Shown piece after piece: positions 1-12,960 of a stretch of 14,043 nucleotides of DNA (positions within the stretch are counted from its first letter, which is position 1; each line of letters begins with the position of its first letter). The stretch is from assembly GCA_029932675.1 (NCBI GenBank), contig JAOZPP010000079.1, forward strand, positions 1 to 14,043, given 5' to 3'. Source of the stretch: a bacterium. GTDB lineage: Bacteria > SM23-81 > DAOVCL01. A program made the translations under genes and the position numbers. The notes under the pieces are model-generated. The model saw only the letters and a list, made by a program, of their open reading frames with translations, did no database searches and had not been told where the DNA came from.

Positions 1-443
1 GTAAATTCTTCTCTTACTTTTACTCTACCTGATTGCCCTTCCTCAAAACGATAATCCATTTTCACTAAAGAAAACCGCCAGTCTTCTTCATTAGGAGAGA
101 CAAAAGCGACTAAGGCTGCATCTTTTAATTTTCCACCTCTACTCCCCTTAAGATACCAGGCGATAAAATTTCTCTGCATAGTTCTTGCTCTTTCCAGGGA
201 AGTTTCTCTTTTGAGTTTTACTATCAATAAATCGATTTCACTCTCACCTTCAGTATATTTTCCAATACGTTCTAATGTGCTAATATATTGCTTAAAAGCA
301 TCCGGGATAAAGTTTCCCCTGTATATAAAAGGAGATTCCTCTATGCGATTAAGAAGGTTTTTGATAAAGACAACAAATTTTTCTTTATCAAATGGTGATT
401 CAAAAGTATCTCTGATAAGCTCTTTCGCCTGTTCTCTATTCAT
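1..443 (-). CDS. Eco57I-like (type IIG) restriction-modification protein, N-terminal part, runs off the window
   Basis: The frame is open from ATG at 443 to the window edge, 147 codons without a stop. The visible residues begin [18 protein letters not shown] and contain a segment with [30 protein letters not shown] recognise this as the N-terminal nuclease-side region of large Eco57I-type proteins that fuse a restriction domain to an adenine-N6 DNA methyltransferase; [10 protein letters not shown] looks like the D/E-x-K core strand of a PD-(D/E)xK nuclease. The methyltransferase motifs would lie beyond base 1, so methylation is inferred from family knowledge and not seen. The start overlaps the end of the HepT-like gene by 8 bases (ATG inside its last codons), suggesting coupled translation; only a weak GGGG precedes it. 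It is probably the last or next-to-last gene of the defence operon. A plain restriction enzyme without a methyltransferase is the main alternative. Confidence 0.75.
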
Positions 444-798
444 TTGACCCCACTGTATTCTCAAAATCTTTTATCATCTTCTTTATAACATCTTCTAACT
501 CTGGTATCCGCTCTCTTACGGTTTTCCATACCACTCTATAGTCAATTCCGAAGTATTCATGTATTAAAATATCTCTCATTCCTGATATGTTCTTCCATTT
601 TATTTGGGGATAACAATTTCTTATATCATCGGGTATCTTCTTCGCTGCCTCACCAATAACTTCAAGACTCCTGACAAACGCCTTTTTCAAGTCTTCATTT
701 TTTATAAGCTCTTCATACGTAATATCCCGCATCCTCTTTAGCAAATATTCGCACTCACTCTTTATATCCATGATATAATCCATGACTTCGCGCTTCAT
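436..798 (-). CDS. HepT-like HEPN-domain ribonuclease toxin (DUF86 family)
   Basis: A 120-residue, mostly helical protein of the usual HepT length. The HEPN catalytic signature R-x4-H-x-Y is intact at R75, H80 and Y82 (within [14 protein letters not shown]), so the active site appears competent. In characterised HepT/MntA pairs the HEPN protein is an RNase that cleaves cellular RNA, and its partner nucleotidyltransferase inactivates it by AMPylating the tyrosine of this motif; that mechanism is family knowledge, not seen here. The gene starts at ATG 798 with GGAGG ten bases upstream, and its ATGA overlaps the stop of the MntA-like gene by four bases, the standard order of this pair. Its own stop overlaps the start of the restriction-modification gene. 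The placement inside a helicase-restriction operon suggests a guard or abortive-infection role. Confidence 0.88.
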
Positions 799-1088
799 AA
801 GTAAACTACCTCCTTCAGAATCCTTTTCCCAATGTTCGGCTTAAGTACACTTTTCATCACAAGATCAACCTTCATTCGAAGCAGATCGGATAGGTAATCC
901 TGCAGATCAATAAAGGTTATCAAATCAGGTACTTCAGAATATTCTATAAGAATATCTATATCACTTCCTGTCCTTTGCTGGTTTCTAATATAAGAGCCAA
1001 ATATTCCTATAGTCTTAACCTTATATTTATCCTGTAGTTCTTGTTTATGTTTTTCTAAAATTCTTTTTACTTCTTCAATCCGTTTCAT
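795..1088 (-). CDS. MntA-like nucleotidyltransferase antitoxin
   Basis: A 97-residue minimal nucleotidyltransferase of the polymerase-beta fold. The motif G-S-x10-D-x-D is visible at G31, S32, D43 and D45 ([19 protein letters not shown]), and a third acidic residue sits at D75 (KVDLV), so the metal-binding triad is complete. The length and the adjacent HepT-like gene identify it as the antitoxin of a HepT/MntA pair; known members transfer AMP onto HepT and silence it. The start at ATG 1088 has AGGAG about nine bases upstream and lies 14 bases inside the end of the helicase gene. The stop overlaps the HepT start (ATGA). Antitoxin-first order fits keeping the toxin silent during synthesis. A stand-alone nucleotidyltransferase is unlikely given the partner. 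Confidence 0.88.
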
Positions 1089-4000
1089 TTCTATCTTCTC
1101 CTGTTAAATACAATGATAATATAACCTCTCTTTTCCCTGAAAACCTGTGTGGATATTCGGCATAATGGCTTTCTAAAAGCCTTTCTGGAATGGTATGTTG
1201 AACAACAGCAAGAGCTTTTAATGGGTTGGTTAAATCTGATTTTAAATTATTCAATGCCTTCAGTGTCTTTTTAGTTGTCTGCTTGGGGATAGCACCTTCT
1301 TCGAGTTGCCTTATGACTTTCTTCAGATAATCTTCCTGTTCATCTGTAAACCTCTGAGCAGTTTTTAGCGTGGCTTTCAGTATCTTTAGAACTTGCGTTC
1401 CACTATCCCTTCCCCGCCTCTGATCTGACATTAAATGTTCCTCAGTTGTAGCATCTATGAATGCTCTTTTATTCTTATCCAGTAGTTCATAAAAATCCTT
1501 AGACCCGTCTGCCGTGCCACTGGCACAGGCAGGTAGATTTCGCTTCTTCTCATCAAGGGAACATTCAAAAACCTTTGCCGCGCTAATAAAATCAACTTCC
1601 TGAGGTTCCTTACTCTTGTTTGCAATAAAGAACTTCTGAAGTTTCCCCAGTCTGAAGTAGGTTAAAAGAGAACCTGCAAATTCCTTATTTTCTTTAGCAG
1701 AGCGCGCCTTTTTGGGAAGACGTTTTATCTTCTCAAAAAGTTGAGGGTTTTTATCCCTGATATCTTTTATAACATTTAGATATTTTAATTCGCTTTCTTC
1801 TATCTCTTCTTCACCCAATAGGGTCTTCTTTGAAATTAACCTATTGAACAATTCATGTGAGCCAACTGGTTCACCCTCTGTTAATATAGCTGCATCACCT
1901 CCGAGAAGGGTTAAGAATGCATTGATCTTTGATTCGGCAGTTTTTCGAAGTTGGATTTCATCTTCAGATTGAATAGTTGGGAAGAAGTTAAATGTATATA
2001 TTTTATCAAATTTTGTATCTATGCGATTTATTCGCCCTACCCTTTGCATCATACGAGTTGGATTCCAGGGAATATCGTAATTTATTACTATATTTGAACG
2101 ATGCAGATTTACACCTTCAGACAATACTTCAGTCGAGACTAAAATCATATAGTCATCTCTGGGCTTTCTTGCTCTGGCATCAAAGTTTTCAATGACTTTA
2201 TCCCGAACTGCCTCACTCGAATCTCCATGATAACAAAGGACTCTGTCCCTACCTGCCAAGGTCTTGGCACAGGCAGGTCCGATTTTCCTTGTGAGATACT
2301 CTGCGGTCTCTTTTGATTCGGTGAAGATAATGAGTTTCTTATTTTTCAAAATTCTATTTTTCGATAACTCATCCTGCAACTTTTGAAGTTTCGGGTCTCG
2401 TTTAACCCTTTCCCAGAGAGATCTTATTCTTTTCAATATTTCAAGATCGTTTTGTAAATCCTTTTTAAACTCATCTGTGAAGTCCTTACTATCATACCTT
2501 TCGGCTTTGCCTTCATCTACCAACTGCTGAACAACTTCGTCATCATCATTTTCTAAGAGTTCAAAGATCTTATTGATGTATTTTTTGCTCACATAAACAT
2601 TACCGTTATCGAATTCCTTGAGAAACATATCGTAGGAACGAATAAATCTATCAATTGAATTGCGGAATGCATAAAAACTACTTTCAAGCCTTTTGACAAG
2701 AAGTATCTTCATAAATTTTCCCATATTTCTCTGGGATATTTCTTCGGGTTGAGTTATTTTGCCCTTGGAGTATAAAAGAGGAGTATAACGGGCATATTTG
2801 AATCTTTGGGTAATCAGGTGAATCGTCTCATTAAAGATTTCATCCTCTGTCTCATTTAATTGGTAATAAAGAGGGACTGGATCTTGAACCTCAGGGAACT
2901 TTAGTTTTTGCTTTTTAATATCCTTGCAGAAGTATTTTTCAATTTCATCCCGCGTGCGGCGAACCATAAGATACTTTAAGACTTTTTCCCTTATCTCTTT
3001 TGCATTTTCTTTCACCCCCTTGAGATACTCCTCATAATTTTTCTGTTTATCGATCCTCTTCAATTTTCTATCGAGTCTATTGAAAAATCTTTCTATGTCA
3101 GAAAGATTTGGGACTGTGCTTTTTCTCGGATTCTGAAAGAGCTTTATTTGGTTCAGAATATCCTTGGGAGAATTGTTGTAAGGAGTAGCAGTAACAAGGA
3201 TAACTCTTTTGCCTCGGCAGATTTGAGCAAGTTTCTCGTATCCAATGGTCGTCTCTGTCCTAAAACGGTGTGCCTCATCTACGATGACATTTGTATATTT
3301 TTCTACCCCTCGATTTAATACCCCCTCAAGTTTACCAACGGATTCAAAGTCAGCAGGAATGTGGAAATCAGAAAATACATTAGGCCAGGAGCCAGGATTA
3401 TTTTTATTCAACAGGGAAGGTGGGGCGACAACAAGAGTTCTGCCATCAAGTTGTCCTGCAAGCATAGCGGCAATATAAGTTTTTCCTAACCCGACAACAT
3501 CTGAGATGAAAACCCCTCCATACTCTTCTAATATCTTTTTAGCATTCAAAACCGCTTGTTCTTGGTATTCAAATCTCTTAAAATCTTGCGGTAAATACTT
3601 TATGAAGACCTCCTCAGTGAGACTTAGTTCATCTTTGAAATATTCGTATAGGAATTTTAAATACAACTCATAGGGGGTTATATTCCGATTAAGCCAGGTC
3701 TTTGTCTGGATTGTGTTAATATATCTATCTTTTACATCTACAGCATCTTTCCAAAGCTCATTAAACTTTTGTAAAGCAAAATCGTAGTCAGCTCTGGTCT
3801 TTAATTCTACATTGAATTCAAGATTATCTATGAGCCCGGCTTGGGTAAAATTACTTGAGCCAGTAATAACTCGACCTACATCCCTATCTCCTTCTTTAAA
3901 AGTCATAATGTAAAGCTTTGCATGTATATTTTCGGTAGGATAAGCTCTGATTTCCAACTTGCCATTTTTAAGCCATTCAATAAATTTAAAAACACCCTCT

Positions 4001-4425
4001 TCAACAGTAGCATTATCTTCCGACTCTTCCATCTCACAGGTTACAGAATTTTCAAACTCTTGCTTTACCTCTGCATGTGAAAATCGACCTGTCTGCCGTA
4101 GCACAGGCAGGAGGGTAGACTGTGTTTCAATTTTTGACCTGTCTGCGTGTGACGCACAGGCAGATTCTTGAAGTAATCTTATCACCTCTTTGTTTGTGCT
4201 GATTCCTATTAAAATTCTGATTTTTTCAGTTGATTCCAGTGATTTATATAGAGCATGGAATCCACTTGTATAAAAATATCCGACTAATACATCGAAGAGG
4301 CGAGTATCTTTTATAAGCACCTTGAATCTATCAAGAAGTCTCTTGTTTCTTTCGTTTGTTATAAAAGTTAAATCTGACCCGCCTGGGCTGTTTGCACGAG
4401 AGAGAGGTGTTATATTGTTATCCAT
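1075..4425 (-). CDS. Phospholipase D-like nuclease domain fused to SNF2-type DEAH helicase
   Basis: About 1116 residues. Numbered from ATG 4425, a PLD-like domain comes first, with H-A-K at about 168 (ENIHAKLYI) and GSSNFTQAGL at about 190. Next come helicase motifs: Walker A DVVGLGKT near 310, DEAH near 385 (IVDEAHRF), LVTATP, then the second lobe with LIIFTESKETAEYL, STEVLSEGVNLH and QRVGRINRI near 795. A long helical C-terminal part follows. One H-x-K half-site is visible, as in dimeric or one-sided PLD nucleases. The role is inferred to be ATP-driven DNA translocation with DNA cleavage in phage defence. The frame extends to 4506, but 4426-4506 codes for the end of a helix-turn-helix protein in another frame. 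I therefore place the start at ATG 4425, with GGAG ten bases upstream; ATG 4434 is the alternative. Four palindromic inserts interrupt it in frame. The stop overlaps the MntA-like gene by 14 bases. Confidence 0.88.
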   Translation of the reverse strand: MDNNITPLSRANSPGGSDLTFITNERNKRLLDRFKVLIKDTRLFDVLVGYFYTSGFHALYKSLESTEKIRILIGISTNKEVIRLLQESACASHADRSKIETQSTLLPVLRQTGRFSHAEVKQEFENSVTCEMEESEDNATVEEGVFKFIEWLKNGKLEIRAYPTENIHAKLYIMTFKEGDRDVGRVITGSSNFTQAGLIDNLEFNVELKTRADYDFALQKFNELWKDAVDVKDRYINTIQTKTWLNRNITPYELYLKFLYEYFKDELSLTEEVFIKYLPQDFKRFEYQEQAVLNAKKILEEYGGVFISDVVGLGKTYIAAMLAGQLDGRTLVVAPPSLLNKNNPGSWPNVFSDFHIPADFESVGKLEGVLNRGVEKYTNVIVDEAHRFRTETTIGYEKLAQICRGKRVILVTATPYNNSPKDILNQIKLFQNPRKSTVPNLSDIERFFNRLDRKLKRIDKQKNYEEYLKGVKENAKEIREKVLKYLMVRRTRDEIEKYFCKDIKKQKLKFPEVQDPVPLYYQLNETEDEIFNETIHLITQRFKYARYTPLLYSKGKITQPEEISQRNMGKFMKILLVKRLESSFYAFRNSIDRFIRSYDMFLKEFDNGNVYVSKKYINKIFELLENDDDEVVQQLVDEGKAERYDSKDFTDEFKKDLQNDLEILKRIRSLWERVKRDPKLQKLQDELSKNRILKNKKLIIFTESKETAEYLTRKIGPACAKTLAGRDRVLCYHGDSSEAVRDKVIENFDARARKPRDDYMILVSTEVLSEGVNLHRSNIVINYDIPWNPTRMMQRVGRINRIDTKFDKIYTFNFFPTIQSEDEIQLRKTAESKINAFLTLLGGDAAILTEGEPVGSHELFNRLISKKTLLGEEEIEESELKYLNVIKDIRDKNPQLFEKIKRLPKKARSAKENKEFAGSLLTYFRLGKLQKFFIANKSKEPQEVDFISAAKVFECSLDEKKRNLPACASGTADGSKDFYELLDKNKRAFIDATTEEHLMSDQRRGRDSGTQVLKILKATLKTAQRFTDEQEDYLKKVIRQLEEGAIPKQTTKKTLKALNNLKSDLTNPLKALAVVQHTIPERLLESHYAEYPHRFSGKREVILSLYLTGEDRNETD
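1503..1534. repeat. Palindromic insert a, in the helicase gene
   Basis: Imperfect inverted repeat inside the helicase reading frame. Its right arm TGGCACAGGCAGGT is identical to that of insert b. Read on the coding strand it gives PACASGTADGS, low-complexity residues in a linker of the C-terminal part, between KKRNL and KDFYELL. It is one of four related elements in this gene. Confidence 0.7.
2251..2278. repeat. Palindromic insert b, in the helicase gene
   Basis: Inverted repeat with perfect outer arms ACCTGCC and GGCAGGT and an inner CCAAG/CTTGG hairpin. On the coding strand it gives GPACAKTLAGR, lying between the helicase strand with TESKETAEYLTRKI and the following VLCYHGDSS, where related helicases normally have a short loop. 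It shares 14 bases exactly with insert a and is in the same reading frame. Confidence 0.7.
4086..4111. repeat. Palindromic insert c, in the helicase gene
   Basis: Inverted repeat with arms CCTGTCTG and CAGGCAGG (one mismatch that could pair as G-T in RNA). It begins GACCTGTCTGC like insert d, 50 bases away. On the coding strand it reads LPVLRQTGR, a different frame from the other three copies. It lies in the PLD part just before the FSHAEVKQEF segment. Confidence 0.65.
4136..4164. repeat. Palindromic insert d, in the helicase gene
   Basis: Inverted repeat beginning GACCTGTCTGC with right arm CGCACAGGCAGA. On the coding strand it gives SACASHADRS, in the same frame as inserts a and b (shared ACA). 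It forms a near-tandem pair with insert c in the N-terminal PLD region, right after NKEVIRLLQE. Confidence 0.68.
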
Positions 4426-4627
4426 TTTCTTCATACTCCAATTTGGTTGACCTATTCCGTGTCCATTCATCAATTTCTCTCCCCCAGAATCTCCAGGTGC
4501 CTGCAACTTTGAAACACGGGATCCTTCCGACTTGAGCTAACTTATAAATAGTTCTCTCACTCACCTATAGATATTCAGCAACCTGTTTTACTATAAGTGC
4601 CTTCTCTTTCCTAAGGCTTCTATCCAA
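4418..4627 (-). pseudogene. Helix-turn-helix (excisionase/MerR-like) DNA-binding protein, interrupted by TAG
   Basis: The minus frame ending at TAA 4418-4420 reads ALIVKQVAEYL, then TAG (4565-4567), then VSERTIYKLAQVGRIPCF and KVAGTWRFWGREIDEW. This is the full core of the short excisionase-family helix-turn-helix domain, with helix 1, recognition helix SERTIYKLA and wing KVAGTWRF. The only upstream limit is TAA 4628-4630, followed directly by TTG at 4627; I see no ATG start. One in-frame stop in the turn of the motif splits it, so it is either a recent pseudogene or a sequencing or strain variant. GTG at 4564 could restart after the stop, but that would lose the first helix. Its 3' end overlaps the helicase start by eight bases. 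An intact copy would be a plausible operon regulator. Confidence 0.72.
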
Positions 4628-4956: not shown

Positions 4957-5059
4957 GACAGGATAAACAGGATCTATATCCATCCAGCCCCATCGGCTTA
5001 GGGACAACCCATATGGGGGGAGAAGTCTTATTTATCCCGGCCATCCTGTTAATCCTGTC
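4957..5059. repeat. Inverted pair of a 17-base GACAGGATWAACAGGAT repeat
   Basis: GACAGGATAAACAGGAT at 4957-4973 and ATCCTGTTAATCCTGTC at 5043-5059 are inverted copies with one mismatch, 69 bases apart. Very similar intergenic repeats recur in many environmental bacterial genomes as far as I remember; I could not check that here. The copies could fold into a long hairpin or mark a small mobile unit. Confidence 0.55.
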
Positions 5060-5241
5060 CAAAAACGGATGCCGAGGGAGCCAAAAGCTCTGAGAGGTAA
5101 ACGAAGTTGGCAGGGTTGTTGGGAGGACGAGTATGGGTTTTGGCCTGGATGAATAATGAGGGCCCTCGGAATGCCAAATAACGAAGTCCTAAATCCCACC
5201 GACGAAATCGGAAGCAAAACCTAAGAGACCCACTTCATCGC

Positions 5242-10848: not shown

Positions 10849-11916
10849 CTAACTTCCGATAGTCATAGCTTCTTTCAGTTCGGAAGGGGGCATTTTCCCT
10901 AAACCGACCACCCTCAAGTTTTCTTTGACATGTTCGGGGTTTTTCATCCCCACCAAGCAAGAGGTAACCCCCCTAAGGGAACGGATCGCCTGAATCCTTT
11001 TGGCAATAGAAATCCCCGGATATTCTCTCCCCTTGTCTATGGTGCGACTGGAGAAGACAACAAGTCCCAATCTCTCAGCTAATTCCAATGTTGTATACCA
11101 TTTCCCCCTAAACCGCTGGTTTCTCTTCAAGTAGGCCTCTGGCATCAGTAGGCTTATTGGCAGTTGGATAACCCTGAAATGATGGTTCTTGCCCGCTGTG
11201 GTAGTCTGGGCCGCTTTTCGCACCCTTTCCAAGGAAAGATAATCGGGGGCATTACAATCGGCCCTATACCCAGACCAAGTGGCTGCTCCATACATCCTCA
11301 GCTTCCCTTCCCTCACAAGATCTTCAAGGCACTGGAAGGCCTCCCTTAGGCTCCCGTAGAACTCCTCCGGAGTCCACCTTTCCAGTTGAGTTTCCGGATT
11401 ATGGAGAAAGTAAATGTCAATGGTCTCCAATTGTAGATTTTCCAGGCTTAATTCAAGGGATTCACGGATAAATTCGGGGTTTATTGAGTGTCCAAACTCG
11501 ATATCCTCCTGGTCAATTACCCCCCTTTCCAAGAAGAGGCGATCTTTGACAGGCGATTTACACCTCTCCCCATCCACAGGGATGAAACCACTTTTGCTTG
11601 ATATGATGAGCCCCTCCCGTATATGGCTATGTTCCTTAGATAGAGCTCGTAGTGCCCTTCCAATAATCCGTTCGCTTCTCATCCCTCGATAATTCAACGC
11701 CGTGTCTATAACATTACATCCCTCGACGATGGCTACCTTAATCGCCTCAAAGTAGAGATCATCAACCTCATCGCTTGCCTCCCCCAAGTAGGTTCCGATT
11801 CCCACAGTAGAAAAGTATAGTCCTTCCCTTTCACAAAAGTGGTCTCTACCTCGCAGGTGAGTATCCCGATAATGGCCCATTCCCCTCCTGGTGGCATACC
11901 CCTTTAATAAACTCAT
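10849..11916 (-). CDS. Aldo/keto reductase family protein
   Basis: 355 residues of an (alpha/beta)8 NAD(P)H-dependent oxidoreductase. The catalytic tetrad of the family is visible: D71 and Y76 in NVIDTALNYRG, K108 in ISSKSGF, H172 in IYFLHNPE. The YFSTVGIGTYLG start of the barrel and the C-terminal SCLVGMKNPEHVKENL fit the family well. The N-terminal 33 residues (rich in Arg, His and Gly) and the long stretch of about 40 residues between K108 and NPEFIRESLE are more unusual. Substrate unknown. The start ATG 11916 has GGAGGA eight bases upstream, a strong ribosome site. It lies 52 bases upstream of tsaB on the same strand. Some family members have lost reductase activity and act as channel or scaffold proteins, but the complete tetrad argues for an enzyme. 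Confidence 0.9.
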   Translation of the reverse strand: MSLLKGYATRRGMGHYRDTHLRGRDHFCEREGLYFSTVGIGTYLGEASDEVDDLYFEAIKVAIVEGCNVIDTALNYRGMRSERIIGRALRALSKEHSHIREGLIISSKSGFIPVDGERCKSPVKDRLFLERGVIDQEDIEFGHSINPEFIRESLELSLENLQLETIDIYFLHNPETQLERWTPEEFYGSLREAFQCLEDLVREGKLRMYGAATWSGYRADCNAPDYLSLERVRKAAQTTTAGKNHHFRVIQLPISLLMPEAYLKRNQRFRGKWYTTLELAERLGLVVFSSRTIDKGREYPGISIAKRIQAIRSLRGVTSCLVGMKNPEHVKENLRVVGLGKMPPSELKEAMTIGS

Positions 11917-12261: not shown

Positions 12262-12960
12262 TCACAATGCCCTATTATATCTGTGCCTAAGCTCATCCTC
12301 GGAGATAAGCGGGCGGCTTATCGCCTCAAGGGTTTCCTTCCTCATTACACCCTCTTTGACCAGCTCATAGCCCGCCCTCCTTACCTCCTTCAGGACATCT
12401 TCCCCATCCTTGGTCAATTTCCCCCCTTTCTTCATGAGGAATGCGTGGGGTCTAAGCACCGCGCCAGCGAATTCCACGCTCGCATCCGCGGCAAGCTCCT
12501 GGGCGATGCGCAAAACCGTTCCGAAGTTCCCTATCTCCCACCATCCACCAGTGGAAACGAGCACGATCTCCCGGACCTCCACCCCTTTGCGAAACCTACC
12601 CCGTGTGCGTCCCTGGCGTGTTTCCAGTAAGGGTTCAAGCAATGGGCACAATCTGTTGATAATTTTCTGCATCTCACCAGGGAGCGGAATGTAAACTGGG
12701 GTGGCCAGGATAAAAATATCCGCCCCTCTTAGCTGGGGATAAAGCAACTCCATATCATCCTTGATGTAACATTCCCCAGGGCTCTTATACCAGCAGTACA
12801 TCTCACTACAAGTGCAGGGCTTGACCTTGAGGCGGCTGGCGTAGAATAGCTCGACATCAGATCCGGCATCCATCATCCCTTGGATGAAAGGGGCAAGGAC
12901 CATAGCCGTGTTCCCCTTTTCCATACGAGGGCTACCATTAATGGCAACTGCCTTGCTCAT
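12262..12960 (-). CDS. Flavodoxin-fold NAD(P)H-dependent oxidoreductase (FMN reductase/iron-sulfur flavoprotein-like)
   Basis: 232 residues. The N-terminal KAVAINGSPRMEKGNT is the FMN phosphate-binding loop of the NADPH-dependent FMN reductase family, followed by IKDDMELLYPQLRGADIFILATPVYI, typical of flavodoxin-fold flavoproteins of anaerobes. Between them is a cysteine cluster C49-x-C51-x4-C56-x7-C64. Iron-sulfur flavoproteins have a compact four-cysteine motif at this place; the spacing here differs, so cluster binding is possible but unproven. The C-terminal half is helical and charged. The start is ATG 12960, preceded by GTG and by a G-rich GAGGGGGG ribosome site. An 18-codon frame (12960-13016, MGLALNKCAVDKLLERGV) ends TGATG on this start. 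Substrate unknown. Confidence 0.85.
   Translation of the reverse strand: MSKAVAINGSPRMEKGNTAMVLAPFIQGMMDAGSDVELFYASRLKVKPCTCSEMYCWYKSPGECYIKDDMELLYPQLRGADIFILATPVYIPLPGEMQKIINRLCPLLEPLLETRQGRTRGRFRKGVEVREIVLVSTGGWWEIGNFGTVLRIAQELAADASVEFAGAVLRPHAFLMKKGGKLTKDGEDVLKEVRRAGYELVKEGVMRKETLEAISRPLISEDELRHRYNRAL

Follow-up and report, generated by a model that had tools for sequence, protein, structure and literature searches.

Four in-frame hairpins in a helicase gene belong to a cross-phylum family of very small, probably mobile palindromes

The four short palindromes that interrupt one helicase gene in the window (the whole 14,043-nucleotide stretch of bacterial DNA analysed here) are very probably inserted copies of one cross-phylum family of very small non-autonomous mobile hairpins, which would be inserted by a trans-acting activity, tolerated in protein loops, and carried by phages, insertion sequences (ISs) and defence islands. 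The family is a cross-phylum counterpart of the 'protein-coding palindromes' of Rickettsia. An earlier note on the window had likened the helicase palindromes to the Rickettsia palindromic elements (RPEs) while assigning them to another sequence family, and this comparison is supported by homologues that lack the inserts and by the same hairpin at unrelated sites elsewhere. The spread across phyla, the bias towards lengths in multiples of three both in and outside genes, the presence of the hairpin in genes of phages and ISs, and its nesting within hairpin loops go beyond that note.

The helicase gene and its surroundings

The helicase motifs are intact, including Walker A (VVGLGKTY), DEAH, VTATP, QRVGRINR and the PLD HxK motif (HAKLYI..GSSNF), and comparison with homologues (pN 0.12-0.19, pS near-saturated at 0.77-0.79) indicates purifying selection. 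The protein resembles several defence helicases (PADLOC HKD+Snf2, DrmD and HmaA), with scores below the NCBIfam cut-offs. The gene is part of an AT-rich block (Table 1). The GC content of the helicase island, 37% against 50.5% in the rest of the sampled genome, points to horizontal acquisition, and the helicase probably arrived by horizontal transfer within this AT-rich defence island.

Two other repeats were observed in the window. An imperfect long palindrome (GACAGGATAAACAGGAT ... ATCCTGTTAATCCTGTC, about 4957-5062), spotted by eye, lies downstream of the island, and a 20-base direct repeat (TGGTCAATTNCCCCCCTTTC) has copies at 11510-11529 and 12411-12430 that are 95% identical and 901 bases apart.

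Table 1. Positions in the window of the AT-rich block, its genes and the four helicase hairpins (E1-E4)
Feature	Position	Strand	Description
AT-rich block	3-4506	-	36-39% GC, at the contig end; probable horizontally acquired island holding a partial type IIG restriction-modification ORF, HepT, nucleotidyltransferase and helicase
Type IIG restriction-modification gene	3-464	-	Start only (partial ORF)
HepT RNase toxin	436-798	-	In the AT-rich defence block
Probable MNT-type nucleotidyltransferase	about 800-1090	-	In the AT-rich defence block
PLD-domain + SNF2/DEAH helicase	1078-4506 (1075-4506 counting the stop codon)	-	ORF of 1143 aa
E1, 30 bp	1504-1533	+	CCCGTCTGCCGTGCCACTGGCACAGGCAGG; residues 992-1001 PACASGTADG; covariance model 34.9 bits; predicted coil 981-1002
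E2, 30 bp	2248-2277	+	CCTACCTGCCAAGGTCTTGGCACAGGCAGG; most diverged; residues 744-753 PACAKTLAGR, inside Helicase_C; 26.1 bits; predicted coil 743-755
E3, 24 bp	4088-4111	+	CCTGTCTGCCGTAGCACAGGCAGG; about residues 132-140 LLPVLRQTG; 31.4 bits; predicted coil, pLDDT below 50
E4, 27 bp	4138-4164	+	CCTGTCTGCGTGTGACGCACAGGCAGA; residues 115-123 SACASHADR; 39.2 bits

Four hairpins inserted in frame

The window protein was aligned with 78 homologues from many phyla (60-76% identity), and a run of at least two residues absent from at least 70% of them was taken as a window-specific insertion. Between residues 44 and 1137 only four such insertions occur (residues 117-125, 133-140, 748-753 and 993-1002), and these are the four palindromes; the lone residue D1138, at the far end of the alignment, was also flagged. 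About 37 of some 1,090 residues are inserted, and by our own estimate the fourfold coincidence would arise by chance about once in a million. Removal of the elements restores a close alignment with the homologues (e.g. QE/SKIETQSTL, with the slash at the removed element, against QESRNQPQSTL in L080). Homologues with the same residues at the insert sites, which would have spoken for conserved protein sequence, were not found among the 78.

All four palindromes reported in the earlier note are present, with the corrected bounds of Table 1, and its reading of them as in-frame insertions holds: each has a length divisible by three (3n) and keeps the frame open, and all share one orientation. E3 is read in a different phase from E1, E2 and E4, the three copies that share the ACA tripeptide as first described. 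When hairpin folding was compared with 200 dinucleotide shuffles, two of the four beat all shuffles and the other two were weaker (z -1.6 and -1.9). Run over the window, a covariance model built partly from these copies detects exactly the four helicase hairpins, with no other credible match.

The inserts had also been assigned to loops of the helicase. In an AlphaFold model (overall pLDDT 67, pTM 0.39) all four fall in predicted coil that separates secondary-structure elements, either within segments of pLDDT below 50 or next to them; at this moderate model quality the placement is only moderate evidence. The insertions are exact, and no consistent target duplication is seen at the four sites. 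A four-base repeat, TCTA, flanks E1; reading it as a target duplication would make the insertion 34 bp long and break the frame of the empty gene, and this reading was therefore rejected. On this comparison of sequences, the insertion of four DNA hairpins in frame into one helicase gene is confirmed.

Sequence and distribution of the hairpin family

Members of the family are imperfect hairpins of the form CCTGTCTGC-(variable inner stem-loop)-ACAGGCAGG, with a consensus 30-bp form CCTGTCTGC-GTGCGNNCACGC-ACAGGCAGG, a 27-bp form CCTGTCTGCGTGCAACGCACAGGCAGG, and further forms that differ in the inner stem. The outer arms (also written CCTGTCTG(C)/(A)CAGGCAGG) hardly vary between copies and depart slightly from perfect symmetry; a G-T pair is conserved in them, as is a bulge of two bases. 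Inner stems differ from copy to copy but still pair better than shuffled sequences.

Genomes were searched with an exact pattern of 17 fixed bases, using the reversed pattern as control. The pattern is present in 18 of 56 genomes of a set mostly bearing the helicase (0 matches to the reversed pattern). Among 386 bacterial genomes that were sampled, 41 have it (3 matches to the reversed pattern). The largest copy number is 38, in an Atribacteria metagenome-assembled genome (MAG), followed by 31 for G139 and 18 apiece for two Desulfobacteraceae, and the named hosts further include Aminicenantes, Neomarinimicrobiota and Brocadia; the genomes surveyed are mostly MAGs, in which contigs break at repeats and binning errors are possible. 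A search of the source genome for the hairpin, proposed in the earlier note, yielded 11 distinct loci with the covariance model (which contains the window copies), four of them in the helicase. The same model gives about 6 loci in another genome of the same genus, and no hairpin in two other genomes of the phylum.

A first, specific pattern (GGCACAGGCAGG), with three sites only, had suggested that the family is confined to the helicase gene, a view overturned by the wider pattern and covariance searches. A 14-mer search allowing three mismatches returned mostly noise, and a loose pattern was kept for finding candidates only, since its control counts (14 each way) exceeded its matches. A consensus search of annotated phage and plasmid records gave no match. 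Copies are present on IMG/VR contigs, where about 80 raw matches are expected by chance (our own estimate), and so only those with inner stems of at least 3 bp were used. A literature search on the sequence and on coding palindromes shared across phyla, with most subscription journals and bioRxiv preprints outside its coverage, returned nothing.

Two local accumulations were observed. Ten near-identical copies of 31 bp (a length other than 3n) in G274 (L467-L476) have flanks like CTTCGGTCT / ATCCGTCTTC and share a larger repeat context, which revealed no mobiliser. The 27-kb contig IMGVR_UViG_3300044786_000060 (L353/L393/L407), filed as viral, matches the element's pattern in at least nine places, which could make it a hot carrier, unless it is host DNA filed wrongly.

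In-frame copies in other genes

In-frame copies occur in a ResIII helicase and an N6/N4 DNA methylase of the same-genus genome (G001), and in another DNA methylase of the source genome itself. In NadA, the main gap relative to solved quinolinate synthases is 11 residues long and has the element within it (LPVRDRTQTG). Sir2 carries a nested double insert, HsdR an insert immediately ahead of Walker A, and a hybrid histidine kinase two inserts. Among IS genes, in-frame copies are found in DDE and Mutator transposases, and on IMG/VR contigs in a head protease/capsid fusion, a terminase large subunit and a primase. Two in-frame copies were also seen in the gene of a BrxC-like (BREX) protein, again on an IMG/VR contig (L412:2-3052).

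Some homologues of the window helicase (L059, L062, L074 and L079) have independent copies of their own, which differ in phase and orientation; that of L079 is two codons away from the E4 site and is oriented oppositely. Separately, the loop matching residues 939-945 of the window helicase carries in-frame palindromes of different, unrelated families in several homologues (L045, L059, L074, L076, L085, L089, L094, L098, L121 and L123), examples being CACAAGCAAGATGCTTGTG (which encodes HKQDAC), CAAGGGGTTGCAACCCCTTG and CCTCTCCC..GGGAGAGG. This loop behaves as if it were a palindrome hotspot.

Length in multiples of three

The element is 21-35 bp long over 123 distinct sequences from 26 genomes, and 101 of these sequences have a length of 3n. 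The bias is found in 25 of 27 copies inside ORFs of at least 120 aa and in 55 of 60 copies outside them. As it is equally strong outside detected ORFs, local coding selection at each site does not explain it. In addition, 48 of 62 distinct copies have no stop codon in any of the six frames, a state reached by 26% of composition shuffles. Length in threes and six-frame freedom from stops together make insertion into genes tolerable.

Proposed mechanism and alternative explanations

The presence of the same sequence at unrelated sites, together with the exactness of the insertions, points to a mobile hairpin. Copies are found in the apical loops of other palindromes, including those of their own kind, and the flanks of copies are complementary to a mean of 6.09, against 5.40 for shuffled flanks (sd 0.16). 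In G095 the element often interrupts a second repeated palindrome (GTAGGGGCGTATTG..CAATACGCCCCTAC) at its midpoint (L197, L215 and L223), and one unfilled outer palindrome (L211:2309) represents the empty site; the evidence for a hairpin-loop preference comes mostly from this one MAG. Such nesting, taken with the absence of a consistent duplication of the target, favours a single-strand mechanism.

It is suggested that a trans-acting activity recognises the hairpin and inserts a copy, most likely on single-stranded DNA. The insertions that survive would be those that are 3n in length, free of stops and located within protein loops, where the element would be translated as a harmless loop extension of 8-10 residues. 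The copies in phage structural genes and IS transposases indicate a possible carrier for cross-phylum spread, in which phages, IS transposases and defence islands would take copies from one phylum to another. The helicase inserts could have entered either before or after horizontal transfer of the gene. A search for a mobilising enzyme found none, and no copy flanks any of the approximately 50 Y1 loci examined. More tentatively, and with somewhat less than even confidence, we propose the full scheme of a single 27/30-bp selfish hairpin family that has evolved neutrality to coding through its 3n length and six-frame freedom from stops, is moved between bacterial phyla by phages, ISs and defence islands, is inserted into single-stranded DNA hairpin loops by a trans-acting enzyme, and adds loop peptides even to essential enzymes and capsids.

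An alternative that we regard as unlikely is that the hairpins are a GTAG/CGTC REP family mobilised by RAYT (REP-associated tyrosine transposase). A hairpin size of 20-40 bp, the conserved G-T pair and bulge of the stem and the nesting in hairpin loops are all consistent with REPs, as are the Y1_Tnp genes in 12 of 12 element-bearing genomes tested. However, of 17 genomes in which the exact pattern does not find the element, 14 have such genes too, the Y1 loci examined lack flanking copies, the GTAG/CGTC tag is at neither end (flank column counts, 71 distinct sites), and the copy number reaches a maximum of only 38 per genome.

Conservation across phyla, the four copies of one orientation in a single gene and the 3n lengths would also suit functional hairpins, acting in regulation or recognition (mRNA structure, DNA uptake or protein-binding sites) and kept by selection rather than selfishly. 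We find this improbable, since homologues of the helicase do without the inserts, position, phase and orientation vary among those homologues, and presence is patchy, with most genomes lacking the family.

Origin in place, by template switching or hairpin-primed slippage, with the likeness between copies due to convergence on GC-rich repeats, would account for the short length and the free variation of the inner stems. This reading is largely refuted by the fixed asymmetrical outer arms common to unrelated genes and phyla, and the exact placement of insertions between conserved residues and the near-zero reversed-pattern controls also oppose it; we give it very little credence. Ribosomal bypass is known from T4 gene 60 and the yeast mitochondrial byp elements, and a programmed skipping of mobile hairpins inside coding sequence can practically be dismissed here, because the helicase inserts, 3n and stop-free like nearly all copies in ORFs are 3n, do not need it.

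Significance and comparison with known systems

Protein-coding palindromes have been pictured as peculiar to Rickettsia and Wolbachia, in addition to scattered intragenic REPs elsewhere. If our preferred reading, a family of mobile hairpins inserted in trans, is true, a much smaller family is common to many phyla and phages, and in-frame hairpin insertion would be a general route of loop lengthening. Two testable questions would then follow, the identity of the inserting enzyme and the reason for a 3n length even outside genes. For annotators, the family explains odd peptides of 8-10 residues in conserved proteins (PACASxxADR, LPVRxxTQTG, TCLRAxTHRQ and LSACxxAQAG).

Bacterial MITEs (Correia, ERIC and others) are non-autonomous repeats, some of which add in-frame peptides (PMC10969869). 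The hairpin family is like them in this. It may differ in its ends and target sites: neither terminal repeats of a known IS nor a parent IS was seen, and the insertions at the four helicase sites show no consistent target duplication. REPs tagged with GTAG/CGTC are 20-40 bp hairpins with G-T pairing, of which some are intragenic, including cases in DNA repair and helicase genes (Di Nocera 2013, PMC3733652). The palindrome size, conserved stem, G-T pair and intragenic copies are shared, whereas the hairpin family has no such tag and no linked RAYT at the Y1 loci examined, and is distinguished by its low copy number, its length quantised in threes, and a single sequence family across many phyla. 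The small dispersed repeats (SDRs) of filamentous cyanobacteria, which Elhai is said to have described in 2008, are reportedly about 21-27 bp long and apparently mobile with no enzyme of their own. The hairpin family is like them in its very small size and apparent mobility without its own enzyme, a likeness at the level of description.

RPEs and the Wolbachia WPEs are palindromic repeats that interrupt various unrelated conserved genes without breaking the frame, are tolerated there in exposed loops, and also occur in intergenic DNA; RPEs are about 84-150 bp long, are described in Rickettsiales, and have an ATGAC motif in RPE-4/6/7 (PMC2229807, PMC3767692, PMC10969869). The hairpin family likewise adds in-frame palindromes to genes that are unrelated to one another and whose homologues are free of them (the helicase, NadA, Sir2, HsdR and others). 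In contrast, its copies are only 24-30 bp in the window and 21-35 bp overall, its CCTGTCTGC/ACAGGCAGG arms are without the ATGAC motif of RPE-4/6/7, the RPE families compared, and its hosts are many phyla and phage contigs. Judged by these sequence features, the family appears to work like RPEs and is, by length, sequence and host range, distinct from them.
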